From Acuticoccus sp. MNP-M23 (lineage in GTDB: Bacteria; Pseudomonadota; Alphaproteobacteria; Rhizobiales; Amorphaceae): a stretch of 64,000 nt of DNA. Positions 56,580 through 63,425 of this stretch are shown here, one piece after another. The translations under genes and the position numbers were made by a program. Position 1 is the stretch's first letter; every line of letters begins with the position of its first letter. The stretch spans positions 2,596,501 through 2,660,500 of the forward strand of contig NZ_CP133480.1 in NCBI RefSeq assembly GCF_031195445.1, read 5' to 3'. The notes beneath the pieces are model-generated. The model made no database searches. It was not told the DNA's origin and worked only from the letters and a program-made list of their open reading frames with translations.

Positions 56580-58193
56580 CTAGAACTTGCCGTCATAGGC
56601 GCGGCGGCCGATTCGCACACACAGCAACGTGAATGTGGGCCGCGAGAGGGCAGCGGCGGCCTCGCTGGCGAGGGTCTCGGTGTCGTCGATCCACACGCCG
56701 TGGCCGCCCATTGCGCCCGCCACGGCAACAAGGTCCGTGGCGGAGAAATCGACGCCCGTGTTGCCGAGCTGCTGGCCGCGCTGCTTCATTTCAATCAGCG
56801 ACAGGCTGTCGTCGATCAGGACCACAACGGGCACGGCAAGGCCGAGGTCGCGCACGGTGGCAAGGTCGCCGAGGACCATTTCAAGGCCGGCATCACCGAC
56901 AAACGCGGTCACGGGTGTCTCGGGGGCGGCCTGCTTGTGGCCGGCCGCCAGCGCCACCGCGCAGCCCATGGTGCAAAGGGCGGAGGACTGGAGCATCGTG
57001 CGCGGCGCCGGGCAGTCCCAGATCTGGCTGAGAAGGATGCGGTGTGCCCCGGAATCGGCGGTGATGACCGTCTCCGCCGGCAGGACCTTGCGCAGGGCGT
57101 GGAACGCTGCGGCGGGGCCCCAGCCGCCGGTCTCGGCCGCAAAGGTTTCACGCAGCGCATTGCGCACCTTGCGGGGCGTGGCGTCCGGCCAAGTGGGGTG
57201 GTGGGCGCTGCCATTGGTGAGCGTGTCGAGAACTGCGGAGACCGAACCGTACAGTGTCACCTGCACCGAATGCATGCCGTGGGTGCGGACCACCGGCGTC
57301 ACGTCGATCACGCGCGCATCGTCGGGCCACGGGTCGCGCCATCCGGCGCGCATCTCGATCGGGTCGTAACCGGCAAGGACGATGCAGTCGGCCTTTGCAA
57401 TCAGCGGCATCAGGTGCTTGTCGGCAAGGGGGGAGAGGCCGGCGCCGCCGATGGCAAGCGCGTCGGTTTCCGCAATGAGGCCCTTGCCCTTGTAAGTGGT
57501 GATGACCGGCGCGCCCACCGAGCGCGCAAAGCGCACGAGCGCATCGCTGGCGCCGTCGTTCACCGCGTCGAGCCCGGCAATCACCAGCGGGCGCTCGGCT
57601 TCCCCGAGCCACTTGCGGGCACGCTGCAGCTCCGGTCCATCGGCGGGGATGAAGCTGGCGCCAACCCCGGCAGGCGCGGATGCGGAACCCCTGGCGGCCT
57701 CTTCGGCAACACGGATCGGCACGTCGATGTGGACGGGGCCGGGCTGGCCGGTGGCAGCCAGCACCAGCGCCTTGTCCATCACCTGGTTGAGGCTTGAGGT
57801 GGCGGCGCGGAAGGTGGCTTTCACAATGCCCGCAAGAAGCGCCTGATGGTCGAACACCTGATGGGTGTAGGTGTCGGCGTCGCCGGCATCGAGGCAGCCG
57901 GTGAGCACGATCAGCGGCACCCGGTCCTGATGGGCGTTGGCAATGACGTTGACGGCGTTGGCAAGGCCCGGCCCGATGGTGGCGACAAGGATCGCCGGGG
58001 CGCCGGTGGCGTGCCATGTGCCCTCGGCCATGAACCCGGCAAAATTCTCGTGCTTGGTGAGGTGGAACGCAATGCCGGCTGCGGTCAGCGCGTCGATGAT
58101 GGTGAGGACCTCGCCGCCCGGAATGCCGTAGGCGTGGCTGCACCCGCTGGCGGCGAGCTTGCGGGCGATGATGTCGGCGTTGCGCAGGGTCAC
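56580..58193 (-). CDS. Thiamine diphosphate-dependent enzyme, acetolactate-synthase-like
   Basis: A 537-residue three-domain ThDP enzyme. The N-terminal Pyr domain has YGIPGGEVLTIIDAL and the catalytic Glu in KHENFAGFMAEG, the middle domain resembles a DHS-like FAD/ADP fold, and the C-terminal PP domain has VGDAGLEMVLGDLATV then VVLIDDSLSLIEMK, where the usual Asn of the Mg/ThDP motif is Asp. This fits the acetolactate synthase/benzoylformate or oxalyl-CoA decarboxylase-like group; the product is unknown. Only three bases separate it from the CoA-transferase gene upstream, so both act together, which favours an acyl-CoA substrate. Confidence 0.85.
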   Translation of the reverse strand: MTLRNADIIARKLAASGCSHAYGIPGGEVLTIIDALTAAGIAFHLTKHENFAGFMAEGTWHATGAPAILVATIGPGLANAVNVIANAHQDRVPLIVLTGCLDAGDADTYTHQVFDHQALLAGIVKATFRAATSSLNQVMDKALVLAATGQPGPVHIDVPIRVAEEAARGSASAPAGVGASFIPADGPELQRARKWLGEAERPLVIAGLDAVNDGASDALVRFARSVGAPVITTYKGKGLIAETDALAIGGAGLSPLADKHLMPLIAKADCIVLAGYDPIEMRAGWRDPWPDDARVIDVTPVVRTHGMHSVQVTLYGSVSAVLDTLTNGSAHHPTWPDATPRKVRNALRETFAAETGGWGPAAAFHALRKVLPAETVITADSGAHRILLSQIWDCPAPRTMLQSSALCTMGCAVALAAGHKQAAPETPVTAFVGDAGLEMVLGDLATVRDLGLAVPVVVLIDDSLSLIEMKQRGQQLGNTGVDFSATDLVAVAGAMGGHGVWIDDTETLASEAAAALSRPTFTLLCVRIGRRAYDGKF

Positions 58194-58196
58194 GGG

Positions 58197-59480
58197 TCAG
58201 CCTTTCGCGGCGAGATCGCCGAGGTCGACCACCCCCGCCTTTGCCAGAGCGTCGATTGCATCGTCGTCCATGCCCAGAAGTTCGGTGAGCACTTCGCGGC
58301 TGTGCTCGCCGCGCATCGGCGGCCGGCGCCGATAGTCCACCGGCGTGTCCGACATCTTGATGGGGTTGCCGATGGTGCGGGCAATGCCGTCGGCGGCCGC
58401 CGGATGATCGTGGGTGACCACGGCGCCGCGGGCCGCGGCCTGCGGCTCGGCAAAGGCTTCCGGAATGGTGTTGATGGGGCCGATGGGCACGCCCAGCGGC
58501 GCCAGCACCGCCATCCACTCGGCCCGTGTGCGCTGCGCGGTGAGCCGGGCGACGTTCGCCTCCACCGCATCCCGGTTGCGCACCCGTGCGGCGTTGGTGG
58601 CAAAACGGGGGTCGGTCGCAATGCCAGGCTCGCCGGCTGCGGCGCAGAATTTGGCGAACTGACCGTCATTGCCGATGGCCAGAATGAACATCCCGTCGGA
58701 CGCCGGAAAGGCGTTGTAGGGCACGATGGTGGGATGCCCGTTGCCGCGGCGGATCGGCGTGTCGCCGCTCATCAGGAACGAGGCGCCCTGGTTGATCAGC
58801 CAGGCGAGCTGCGTGTCGAACAGCGACAGGTCGATGTACTGACCCCGGCCGCTGACGCTGCGGCCCTGGAGCGCGGCCAGCATGGCAACCGCGGCGTACA
58901 TTCCCGTCATCACGTCGGCGATGCCGACGCCCACCTTCTGCGGTGTGCCGCCCTTGTCGTCGGCCTCGCCGGTGACGCTCATGATCCCGCCGCGGCCCTG
59001 CGCCATGAAGTCGTAGCCGGCGTGGCTGGCGAGCGGCCCGGTCTGCCCGTACCCGGTCACCGAGGCATAGATCAACTTCGGGTTGATCGTCGACAGCGCG
59101 GCATAGTCCAGCCCCATGCGCGCCGCGCCACCGACCTTGAAATTCTCGATGGCCATGTCCGCCTTTGCCGCGATCGCACGGACGATGTCCTGCCCCTCGG
59201 GTTTCGACAGGTCCAGCGCCAGCGACCGCTTGTTGCGGTTTGCCGCGAGGTAGTAGGCGCTTTCGGCGGTTTCCCGGCCATTCTCGTCGGTGAGAAACGG
59301 GGGGCCCCAGCGGCGCGTGTCGTCGCCGACACCGAAGCGCTCGATCTTGATGATGTCGGCACCGAGATCGCCCAGAAGCTGTGTTGCGGTCGGTCCGGCA
59401 AGGATGCGCGAAAGGTCGAGGACGAGAATTCCGCTCAGCGGCCCGGTAGGCGCAGCGGCGGGGTCGGAACGGTCAGCCAA
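58197..59480 (-). CDS. Class III CoA-transferase (CaiB/BaiF family)
   Basis: A 427-residue CoA-transferase. LSGILVLDLSRILAGPTATQLLGDLGAD at the N-terminus is spread over residues 15-42; RNKRSLALDL and ENFKVGG follow, and the catalytic Asp lies in HAGYDFMAQGRGG. GQYIDLSLFDTQLAWL is another family mark. The acid partner could be oxalate, a dicarboxylate or an aromatic acid. It is the first gene of an operon with a ThDP enzyme and is divergent from the molybdenum hydroxylase operon, with a shared 287-bp promoter region. Confidence 0.92.
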   Translation of the reverse strand: MADRSDPAAAPTGPLSGILVLDLSRILAGPTATQLLGDLGADIIKIERFGVGDDTRRWGPPFLTDENGRETAESAYYLAANRNKRSLALDLSKPEGQDIVRAIAAKADMAIENFKVGGAARMGLDYAALSTINPKLIYASVTGYGQTGPLASHAGYDFMAQGRGGIMSVTGEADDKGGTPQKVGVGIADVMTGMYAAVAMLAALQGRSVSGRGQYIDLSLFDTQLAWLINQGASFLMSGDTPIRRGNGHPTIVPYNAFPASDGMFILAIGNDGQFAKFCAAAGEPGIATDPRFATNAARVRNRDAVEANVARLTAQRTRAEWMAVLAPLGVPIGPINTIPEAFAEPQAAARGAVVTHDHPAAADGIARTIGNPIKMSDTPVDYRRRPPMRGEHSREVLTELLGMDDDAIDALAKAGVVDLGDLAAKG

Positions 59481-59767: not shown

Positions 59768-60625
59768 GTGCGGCCCGCAGCCTTCGATTATCATGCGCCG
59801 GCGACGATCGACGAGGCGGTCGCACTTCTTGGCGTGCATGGTGCGAATGCGCGCGTGATCGCCGGTGGTCAAAGCCTTGTGCCTGCCATGACGGCACGGC
59901 TTGCACGGCCGACCCACCTCATCGACATCAACCGCCTGCCCCGCGCCGAACGTCCCGCCATCGCCGGCGGTCGACTGCGCATCCCGCCGCTGATGCGACA
60001 CGTCGACTTCGAGGTGCCGGTGGCGGACAGCCCGCTGGGCGCTGTTCTTGCAGAGCTGTCGGCCGCCATCGGCCAGCTGGCGGTGCGCATGCGCGGGACC
60101 TTCTGCGGGGCGATCGCCAATGGCGATCCGGCATCGGAGTGGTGCCTTGCCGCCGTGGTTCTGAATGCCGACGTGATCGTCCGCTCCAAGGCGCGCGGTG
60201 TGCGCACCATTGCCGCAAGCGCCTTCTTCGAGACGATCCTCACCACCGTGATGGCCGACGACGAGCTGGTGGTGGAGGTGCAACTGCCGCTTCTGGCCGA
60301 CACCACGCGCTTCGGCTTCTCCAAGATTGCCCGGCGGCACGGCCACTATGGCGCCGCCCTCGGCCTTTGCATCTACGACCGGGACGAGACGCGCATGCGC
60401 GATGTGCGGATCGGCGTCGGTGCGGTGGAGGCGGTGCCGCGCCGCCTCTCCGTTGTGGAGGCGCTGCTGGAGCGGCAGGAGCCGAGCCTGCGGCTGTTCC
60501 GCCAGGCGGCGGACGCTGCGGCCGACACGGTTTCACCGATCGACAGCGCGCCGGACGATATCAGCCACAAGCGCGATCTCACGCGGACGACGGTCCGCCG
60601 TGCCCTGGAGGCATCGCTCCCATGA
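59768..60625 (+). CDS. FAD-binding subunit of molybdenum hydroxylase (CoxM-like)
   Basis: A 285-residue medium subunit. AFDYHAPATIDEAVALL and the FAD loop VIAGGQSLVPAMTARL are typical, followed by the second FAD region GTFCGAIANGDPASEW and FSKIARRHGHYGAALGL. It passes electrons from the iron-sulfur subunit to a quinone or other acceptor. GTG 59768 start. The gene overlaps the iron-sulfur subunit gene by four bases. Confidence 0.9.
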   Translation: MRPAAFDYHAPATIDEAVALLGVHGANARVIAGGQSLVPAMTARLARPTHLIDINRLPRAERPAIAGGRLRIPPLMRHVDFEVPVADSPLGAVLAELSAAIGQLAVRMRGTFCGAIANGDPASEWCLAAVVLNADVIVRSKARGVRTIAASAFFETILTTVMADDELVVEVQLPLLADTTRFGFSKIARRHGHYGAALGLCIYDRDETRMRDVRIGVGAVEAVPRRLSVVEALLERQEPSLRLFRQAADAAADTVSPIDSAPDDISHKRDLTRTTVRRALEASLP

Positions 60626-61104
60626 GAAACATCCAGATGACACTGGACGTGAACGGCGCCGAGCACACGATTGTGGTGGAGCCGCGCACGGCGCTGGTGG
60701 ATGCGCTGCGCGACAATCTCGGCCTCAAGGGCACGCCCGCCGGCTGCGAAGGCGACTGCACCGGCGCCTGCACGGTGCTGGTGGACAACGAGCCGATCCG
60801 CGGTTGCCTGATGTTTGCGGTGCAGGCCCACGGCACGTCCGTCGCGACCGTTGAGGGGTTGTCGGACGGGGTGACGCTCAACGCCTTGCAGGAAGCGTTT
60901 GTGGAGGCCGGGGCCGTTCAGTGCGGCTACTGCACGCCAGGCTTTCTGATGCTGGCCTCCGGTGCGCTCGCCCGCACACCGGACATGGACGACGCGGCCA
61001 TTGCCGCACTGGTGGCGGAAAACATGTGCCGCTGCGGCGCCTACGACCGGATTGAAACTGCGATCAGGACCGCCCGCAACGCGCTCAAGGTCCACGCTCT
61101 ATGA
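60622..61104 (+). CDS. 2Fe-2S subunit of molybdenum hydroxylase (CoxS-like), variant first cluster
   Basis: A 160-residue small subunit with two [2Fe-2S] clusters. The plant-type ferredoxin cluster has Cys42, Cys46, Cys50 and Cys62 (AGCEGDCTGACTVLV, then IRGCLMF). The family spacing is C-x4-C-x2-C; here it is C-x3-C-x3-C, with Thr at the usual second Cys. The second, helical cluster is normal (CGYCTPGF and CRCGAY). ATG 60622 overlaps the FAD-subunit stop and the gene overlaps the large-subunit gene by four bases. Confidence 0.93.
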   Translation: MRNIQMTLDVNGAEHTIVVEPRTALVDALRDNLGLKGTPAGCEGDCTGACTVLVDNEPIRGCLMFAVQAHGTSVATVEGLSDGVTLNALQEAFVEAGAVQCGYCTPGFLMLASGALARTPDMDDAAIAALVAENMCRCGAYDRIETAIRTARNALKVHAL

Positions 61105-63425
61105 AGCACGTTGGCCGGTCCTTCCAGCCGGCAGGCGCCCGTGGTCCGGTCAGCGGACGCGCGCGCTACGCCGGAGACATCGACCTGCCGCGCATGCTGC
61201 ACATGCGGCTTGTGCGTGCGCCGGTGGCGTTCGGCCGGATCGTGCGGATCGACGCGGACGCTGCCCGCGGCGTGCCCGGCGTGGTGGCCATCTGGACGGC
61301 GGACGATGCGGTCCTGCCGCCGGTCCCCGTGCGGGTGATGCCGAGCGAGGCGTTCGAGGCCTATTGCCAGCCGGTGCTGGCGGCCGGAACCGTGCGCTAT
61401 GTGGGCGAGCCGTTTGCTGCCGTGTTCGCCGAGAGCGCGGGCGCTGCCGACGACGCGGCCGAGCTGGTGATTGCCGACATTGATCCCTACGAGCCGCTGC
61501 TGGACGCCACCGCCGATGCCACCCTCCTGTCCGGCGATCTGCGGGCCACCGAATGCGCCACCGTGCGCAAGGGGTTCGGCGATGTGACCCGCGTCTTTCA
61601 CAATGCGGACCGGGTGGTGGAGCGGCGGGTGAGCCTTGCGCGCGATGGCGCCATGGCGCTGGAGCCGCGCGTGGCGCTTGCGGCATGGGATGCCGACCGG
61701 GAGGTGTTGCGCCTGTGGGGCGGCGGCCGCGCCATTCACCAGACCCGTGAAGCCATTGCGACCATGATGGGCCTTGCCGATGAGCAGGTGGAAGTGGAAA
61801 GCGCGCGCTCCGGCGGCAGCTTCGGCAGCCGCGGCGAGCTTTGCGCCGAAGACATGCTGGCCAGCCATGCCGCCCGCAGCCTTGGCCGGCCCGTGCGGTG
61901 GATCGAGGATCGCCGCGAGCAGCTGACCGCCGCCGCGCAGGCGCGCGGCATGGAGGCGCTCGCCCGTGTCGCGCTGGACGACAAGGGCCGTTTCCTGGCG
62001 CTGGACGTGGAATTCTGGATCGACCAGGGAGCTTATCTGCGCGCCGAAGGCACCATGGTCGCCGACCTTGTGGCCGCCATGTTGCCCGGCCCCTATGCGC
62101 TGGACGCCTACCGTGCCGTGGGCCATGTGCGGATGACCAACAAGCCGCCGGCGGGTAGCTTCCGCGGTGCAGGCCGCGTGGAGGCAACCTTCATCCGCGA
62201 GCGGCTGATCGACGGCGTTGCCGACGCCATCGGCCGCGATGGGTGTGCTTTGCGCTGCGCCAACCTTGCACCCGCGCAGCAGAGCGAGGCGCGCAGTGTT
62301 GAGACACTGAAGAGCGCCGTGGCCCCCGAAGGCGTGGCGCATGACGATCTTCTGGCGCAGATGACCAAGCGCTTTTCCCTCGATATCGTGCGCAGGCGTG
62401 CGCAGGACCGCCGCGGTCAGGGCGAACTTGCGGGGATCGGCACGGCCTTTTTCACCGAGCCGTCGGATCTCGGTCCGTTCGACCATGTGCGCATTGCCGC
62501 CGATACCCGCGGCAACCTTGAAGTGGTGACGGCCGCCGCCGAATTCGGTCAGGGCACCACCACCGCCATTGCACAGATTGTCGCCGACATTGTGGGCGTC
62601 GATCTCGACCGGATCCGCGTGACCACCGGGCGAACGGACAGGCTGGGACAGGGCGGCGCACGCATCCTGTCCTCCGGCCTGGCGCTTGCCGGAACGGCGG
62701 CGCAGTACGCCGCGGAGTCACTGCGCGACAAGATCGTCCATGCCGCTGCGCGGATGATGGCGGTGCCGGCCGACCGGCTGTCCGTTCGCTCCGGCCGCAT
62801 TCGCGAGGCGGACCGGCATTTCGGCACCGCGCTTGAACTTGGTGCGCTTGTTCGGGCCTGCGCGCCCGGCACGGTGTTTGCCGGTCCGGACGGCACGGGC
62901 CTTCAGGCCGAGGGCTGGTGCCTGTCGGACGGGATGACCACGTCCCACGGTCTCGCCATTGCGGCGGTGGAGATCGACGAGGCGACCGGCTTCATCAAGG
63001 TGCCGCGGGTGTTCATCGCCTGCGACGTGGGCAACGCCATCAACCCGGACCTCATCACCGCGCAGATCGAGGGCGCGGTGTTGCAGGGCACGGCGGGGGC
63101 GCTTTCGGCGGCGCTGCCGGTGGGCCCGTCAGGTGATCCGCTGGCGCAGACGCTGGCGGACTATGGGATGCCCACCGCGGCAGAGCGGCCCGTTGTGGAG
63201 GTGCTCCTGTCGGAAGAGGCGCCGACGCTGCAAAACCCGCTCGGCATCAAGGGCGTTGGTGCGGCCGGCATTGTCGGGATCGGCGCTGCCATTGCCGCGG
63301 GCATCGATCAGGCACTTGGTGTCTCCGGCTTTGCGAACAGTCTGCCGGTCCGCCCGGCTGCGGTCCGGCTCCATCTGCGCCAGCGCGCGGATGCCGAACG
63401 GGCGGCAATGCGGCGCACCGCCTGA
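61101..63425 (+). CDS. Molybdenum hydroxylase large subunit lacking the catalytic Glu
   Basis: A 774-residue xanthine dehydrogenase/aldehyde oxidase family subunit binding the molybdopterin cofactor. GRARYAGDIDLPRMLHMRL begins the a/b hammerhead domain; GGSFGSRGEL replaces GGGFGxK, GSFRGAGR corresponds to the AYRGAGR loop of form II (not AYxCSFR of CO dehydrogenase), and EFGQGTTTAIAQ is the MPT contact. Near the C-terminus GIKGVGAAG has Ala721 where the family has the proton-abstracting Glu of GVGEAG. The rest of the fold appears intact and the operon is complete, so this may be an unusual or non-hydroxylating enzyme rather than a decayed gene. No CoxD/E/F-type maturation gene is nearby. Confidence 0.9.
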   Translation: MKHVGRSFQPAGARGPVSGRARYAGDIDLPRMLHMRLVRAPVAFGRIVRIDADAARGVPGVVAIWTADDAVLPPVPVRVMPSEAFEAYCQPVLAAGTVRYVGEPFAAVFAESAGAADDAAELVIADIDPYEPLLDATADATLLSGDLRATECATVRKGFGDVTRVFHNADRVVERRVSLARDGAMALEPRVALAAWDADREVLRLWGGGRAIHQTREAIATMMGLADEQVEVESARSGGSFGSRGELCAEDMLASHAARSLGRPVRWIEDRREQLTAAAQARGMEALARVALDDKGRFLALDVEFWIDQGAYLRAEGTMVADLVAAMLPGPYALDAYRAVGHVRMTNKPPAGSFRGAGRVEATFIRERLIDGVADAIGRDGCALRCANLAPAQQSEARSVETLKSAVAPEGVAHDDLLAQMTKRFSLDIVRRRAQDRRGQGELAGIGTAFFTEPSDLGPFDHVRIAADTRGNLEVVTAAAEFGQGTTTAIAQIVADIVGVDLDRIRVTTGRTDRLGQGGARILSSGLALAGTAAQYAAESLRDKIVHAAARMMAVPADRLSVRSGRIREADRHFGTALELGALVRACAPGTVFAGPDGTGLQAEGWCLSDGMTTSHGLAIAAVEIDEATGFIKVPRVFIACDVGNAINPDLITAQIEGAVLQGTAGALSAALPVGPSGDPLAQTLADYGMPTAAERPVVEVLLSEEAPTLQNPLGIKGVGAAGIVGIGAAIAAGIDQALGVSGFANSLPVRPAAVRLHLRQRADAERAAMRRTA

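Follow-up and report, generated by a model that had tools for sequence, protein, structure and literature searches.

Enzymes of the xanthine oxidase family are held to use a glutamate near the C terminus of the molybdenum-binding large subunit to deprotonate the Mo-OH ligand ahead of attack on the substrate carbon. This Glu is regarded as a key catalytic, strictly conserved residue of the family. The closest described system to the locus reported here is KdhL, the large subunit of 6-hydroxypseudooxynicotine dehydrogenase (a ketone dehydrogenase; PDB 7dqx), which is the nearest solved relative by sequence (E-value 1.9e-111). Activity of KdhL depends on Glu748, Trp551, and Glu345, and the E748A substitution abolishes it completely (PMC8305194). 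In computations on the same enzyme, N1 of the substrate itself accepts the Mo-OH proton (PMC8305194). A second precedent is mouse AOX1, where the E1265Q variant is inactive though it retains 60% of its Moco (PMC2671166). A search of the open-access literature, with most subscription papers outside its reach, returned no prior report of natural loss of this Glu in the family.

We analyzed a three-gene operon within a 64,000-nucleotide window of the Acuticoccus sp. MNP-M23 genome (Table 1). ATGA overlaps join the FAD gene to the 2Fe-2S gene and the latter to the molybdenum gene, and the large-subunit open reading frame, last in the operon, contains no internal stop codon. An earlier interpretation of the DNA, made from its letters alone (the sequence-only reading), had described an intact frame in a complete and coupled operon with Ala in place of the catalytic Glu, and both descriptions hold. 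The C-terminal motif region of the large subunit reads GIKGVGAAGIVG, including Ala721, and this residue aligns with Glu748 of KdhL (7dqx_A) in an ungapped motif. The change is thus the one made in KdhL E748A, at the corresponding residue. The AlphaFold model of the large subunit (mean pLDDT 81.9) has 7dqx as its best fold match (Z 46.3, rmsd 2.6, 731 residues), and the predicted fold matches solved xanthine oxidase family members over nearly the full length. The operon encodes a three-subunit complex that is related to KdhL and has the xanthine oxidase (molybdenum hydroxylase) fold. The FAD-2Fe-2S-Mo gene order is kept in orthologues of Acuticoccus and its sister genus. Many Glu-bearing relatives have the order FAD, second large subunit, 2Fe-2S, large subunit, placing two different Mo subunits in adjacent genes (observed at L055, L063, L112, L053, L040, L035, L041, L078, and L095). 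Divergent from the operon, and adjoining it across Acuticoccus, lies a pair of genes for a CaiB-type CoA transferase and a TPP enzyme (56580-59480), with identities within the genus of 68-80% and 70-75%, respectively.

Table 1. Operon genes and motifs, numbered from the first letter of the window.
Feature	Position	Strand	Description or basis
FAD subunit gene	59768..60625	+	GTG start, 285 aa; PF00941 and PF03450 above cut-off
2Fe-2S subunit gene	60622..61104	+	160 aa; PF01799 and PF00111
Distal [2Fe-2S] motif, C42-x3-C46-x3-C50 (Thr47) instead of C-x4-C-x2-C	60745..60771	+	Small-subunit alignment
Molybdenum large subunit gene	61101..63425	+	774 aa; PF01315, PF02738, and PF20256 above cut-off
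Moco loop GGSFGSRGE	61812..61838	+	Residues 238-246; aligned with KdhL GGSFGVKG
Active-site loop SFRGAGR	62157..62177	+	Residues 353-359; aligned with KdhL AYRAPG loop
Codon 721, GCG (Ala), at the catalytic Glu position	63261..63263	+	ORF translation; alignment to KdhL

Likeness to KdhL extends to the division into FAD, 2Fe-2S, and Mo subunits and to the retained GGSFG loop and loop arginine. Unlike KdhL, the window protein has Ala721 for Glu748, Gly317 for Glu345, and Ile522 for Trp551, as well as Leu523 for Ser552 and Ala357 for Pro385, Ser552 and Pro385 both being placed at the cofactor in KdhL. A KdhL-type enzyme was rejected because three essential residues are replaced, and with identity of only ~31% the likeness supports no claim about the substrate. 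The fold is shared with CoxL of aerobic CO dehydrogenase (8uem_A, 1n60, 1n61), but SFRGAGR stands in place of AYRCSFR and the catalytic Glu is absent; the protein is not a CoxL, since the Cu-binding loop cysteine is missing. Xanthine dehydrogenase/oxidase and aldehyde oxidase likewise have the same fold and cofactor-binding domains, but they carry the catalytic Glu (bovine Glu1261, mouse AOX1 Glu1265), and the animal enzymes are single chains rather than separate subunits. The top-scoring NCBIfam model for each subunit belonged to glyceraldehyde dehydrogenase (alpha, beta, and gamma), an assignment rejected because the scores fall far under the curated cut-offs (427 vs 790, 173 vs 350, and 153 vs 290 bits). 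Among the family hallmarks, the hammerhead and two Moco-binding domains are present in the large subunit according to Pfam and the predicted model, and the FAD-binding subunit expected of three-subunit members is encoded in the same operon. The catalytic Glu of GxGE near the C terminus is replaced by Ala721, and the eight-cysteine, standard-spacing pattern for two [2Fe-2S] clusters is broken in the window genome by the shifted distal motif. The complex is a variant of the xanthine oxidase family that falls outside its functional definition on the catalytic Glu and, here, on the distal cluster motif as well.

We then considered position 721 across homologues. A search of genome contigs gave no matches with a single-protein query and 80 loci with an alignment query; a plasmid collection searched at 1e-100 gave none. 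Glu occupies the column in 168 of 178 scorable homologous matches, some of them redundant, and the 10 non-Glu rows sit in three places of the tree. The other large-subunit matches from the window's own genome carry Glu wherever the motif is covered, one of them (L010) reading GEPP; an in-frame TGA in L010 proved to be the end of that gene. Six further Acuticoccus genomes, separately assembled and each representing one species, contain orthologues. None of the seven orthologues has Glu: the residue is Ala in the window, Thr in G003, Asp in G006, G002, G004, and G005, and Arg in G001. In the sister genus, one genome (G008) has Glu and another (G009) has Gly. The GxKGxGx motif is ungapped against both the relatives and 7dqx, which rejects an alignment shift hiding the Glu, though a residue elsewhere in the chain might still substitute for it in space.

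The seven Acuticoccus large subunits form one clade (SH-aLRT 100) in a maximum-likelihood tree, obtained by a quick search and with the Arg-bearing row on a long branch. This tree requires at least three changes between Glu and non-Glu and at least six state changes overall at site 721. Given that Glu is found in all outgroups, the Glu/non-Glu changes are read as losses. The best explanation of these alignments is that Glu was lost early in Acuticoccus and that the site then drifted, Ala being one drifting state. The sequence-only reading proposed finding out whether close homologues all have Ala; what they share is the missing Glu. Its emphasis on Ala is not supported, since Thr, Asp, or Arg stands at the site in close orthologues and no new residue has been fixed.

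Beyond this site, the conserved core has loosened. A set of 96 Glu-bearing relatives defines 115 columns with conservation of ≥97%; departures from these number 26 in the window protein, 14-42 in the other Acuticoccus proteins, and four or fewer in each relative. Because those relatives had helped define the 115 columns, a fairer control is provided by L115-L121, which were kept outside the reference and are about equally divergent (mean identity 42-46%, vs 41.5% for the window protein). Measured this way, the window protein breaks 34 of 133 conserved columns and the control proteins 12-15, so core positions are loosened about twofold relative to equally divergent relatives. Some changes are nevertheless held: K210R and H182D are fixed in all seven Acuticoccus large subunits, A523L/V is held across the clade and E670T nearly so, while other core changes vary freely. 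H316 is replaced by Glu or Asp in six of the seven, and the Thr721 species lacks E316. Cofactor residues Gly242, Arg355, and Lys717 are kept, as is Phe241 in six of seven. The sequence-only reading had described the surrounding motifs as preserved, with GGSFGSRG as a departure. The Moco loop is indeed present, but its wording is not unusual (GGSFGVKG in KdhL, GGGFGIRGEL in the nearest Glu-bearing relatives), and preservation does not extend to the many loosened invariant positions or, in the window genome, to the 2Fe-2S ligand spacing.

This spacing shift is confined to the window genome; the arrangement is standard in the small subunits seen from other Acuticoccus species. Judging from the cysteine pattern, the shift may impair the distal 2Fe-2S cluster. 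A compensating frameshift pair was rejected as its source, since, as judged by eye, neither alternative frame across 60751-60762 recovers the usual motif. Proximal-cluster cysteines are complete in all small subunits aligned. In two other Acuticoccus species (L028 and L032), Gly takes the place of Gln in QCGFCTPG near the proximal cluster, and L028 also differs beyond its last cysteine pair (CRCTDAH).

For the large subunit across six Acuticoccus species, codon models gave an omega of 0.146 (lnL -11246, vs -11758 at omega = 1). With kappa free, the estimates for the large, FAD, and 2Fe-2S subunits were 0.148, 0.156, and 0.052, respectively; among the controls, a Glu-bearing paralogue (a large subunit without neighboring FAD and 2Fe-2S genes) gave 0.117, and the syntenic CaiB and TPP genes gave ~0.10. 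All of these omegas are approximate because dS is near saturation in distant pairs, and a closer trio (G006, G004, and G002) gave the same order, with 0.125 for the large subunit vs 0.094 for the paralogue. Reading frames are intact in all seven Acuticoccus orthologues despite ~50% divergence. The large-subunit gene is under purifying selection, and neutrality is rejected. A frameshift or pseudogene is thus rejected, in agreement with the sequence-only reading that the gene is not decayed. Large-subunit identity is 50-57% for most pairs of the six species, vs 69-74% for the paralogue, with the trio of close species higher in both sets. The operon is not indispensable, because it is absent from the syntenic site in another Acuticoccus genome (G007; L211, 8507-9795), which keeps the TPP, CaiB, GTP-cyclohydrolase-II-like, and small-protein genes and lacks the operon between the last two.

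What the complex does can be approached from the inactivity of KdhL E748A and AOX1 E1265Q; read most simply, these variants imply that the Acuticoccus complex has probably ceased to be an ordinary hydroxylase. Without a base, the Mo-OH group would not be activated, and ordinary hydroxylation would be lost or very slow. Because selection acts on all three subunits, another role is implied. We hold, with middling confidence, that the general-base Glu was lost early in the genus and that purifying selection then retained the complex for a function that does not involve Glu-assisted hydroxylation. The complex might serve as a non-hydroxylating partner, for example in ligand binding or in passing electrons through its 2Fe-2S/FAD part; an impaired distal cluster would lean toward a binding or structural role in the window genome. 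The missing Glu in seven of seven species, the dead KdhL variant, the loosened core, and the rejection of neutrality all agree with such a role. Against it, Asp in four of the seven orthologues could serve as a weaker base, and the retention of Gly242, Arg355, Lys717, Phe241 (six of seven), and the proximal cysteines would be surprising in an inactive enzyme. The clade-wide fixation of R210 and D182 likewise hints at remodeling over loss.

Remodeling is the main rival explanation, under which the complex would still be a hydroxylase but would draw its base from the substrate or another acid. It is a possibility to be taken seriously, though not the outcome we would expect. Asp721 could act as the base in four species, and elsewhere the role might fall to E316 or D182 (both specific to Acuticoccus), to the conserved E246, or to the substrate. 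Fixation of H182D and K210R in all seven, the H316 replacements in six, strong purifying selection, and the computed proton path to substrate N1 in KdhL are consistent with this proposal, but KdhL E748A is dead despite that path (PMC8305194). In addition, E316 is missing from the Thr721 species, the seven proteins have no conserved replacement in common, and neither Arg nor Thr can be a base.

Slow degeneration, in which a dispensable hydroxylase is being lost, its active site first and its genes next, is unlikely. It would account for the loosened core, the shifted 2Fe-2S cysteines of the window genome, the absence of the operon from G007, and divergence faster than that of the paralogue, but it sits poorly with omega of ~0.15 (0.05 for the 2Fe-2S subunit), with strongly rejected neutrality, and with seven intact frames. 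A sequencing error or private mutation, which the sequence-only reading had named as a threat to its claim, is highly improbable, since Ala itself is known from one strain but six other species in separate assemblies also lack Glu, which rejects a one-species mutation at the clade level.

If the complex does act without Glu-assisted hydroxylation, the annotation "xanthine dehydrogenase family" need not mean hydroxylase activity. The orthologues also offer a natural set of variants (Ala, Thr, Asp, and Arg, plus Glu from the sister genus) for probing the fold without Glu.

A separate clade of large subunits carries Gln at the catalytic Glu position in 13 of 13 members (L194, at G004:C1:1195412-1197616, L176, L181, L192, L193, and L213-L220), five of them from Acuticoccus and eight from other alphaproteobacteria. 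T511H, S514A, E544Q, and A713T (L194 numbering) are fixed alongside Gln. Neither the flanks of the 13 members nor longer stretches around five of them yielded an FAD or 2Fe-2S subunit, an absence that is not telling by itself because the Glu-bearing paralogue family also lacks neighboring partners. The uniformity of Gln may make this clade the more promising one in which to seek truly altered chemistry. A broader and rather doubtful proposal is that Acuticoccus has a functional complex performing Mo-centered chemistry without a protein-supplied Glu base, the base coming from the substrate or relocated acids, with the Gln clade as a second independent solution; if true, nature would here contradict the rule that the family cannot do without this Glu. 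Asp also occurs at the site, within an altered KSGGDPG motif, in L137 and L138, an independent and distant pair from another alphaproteobacterial family.
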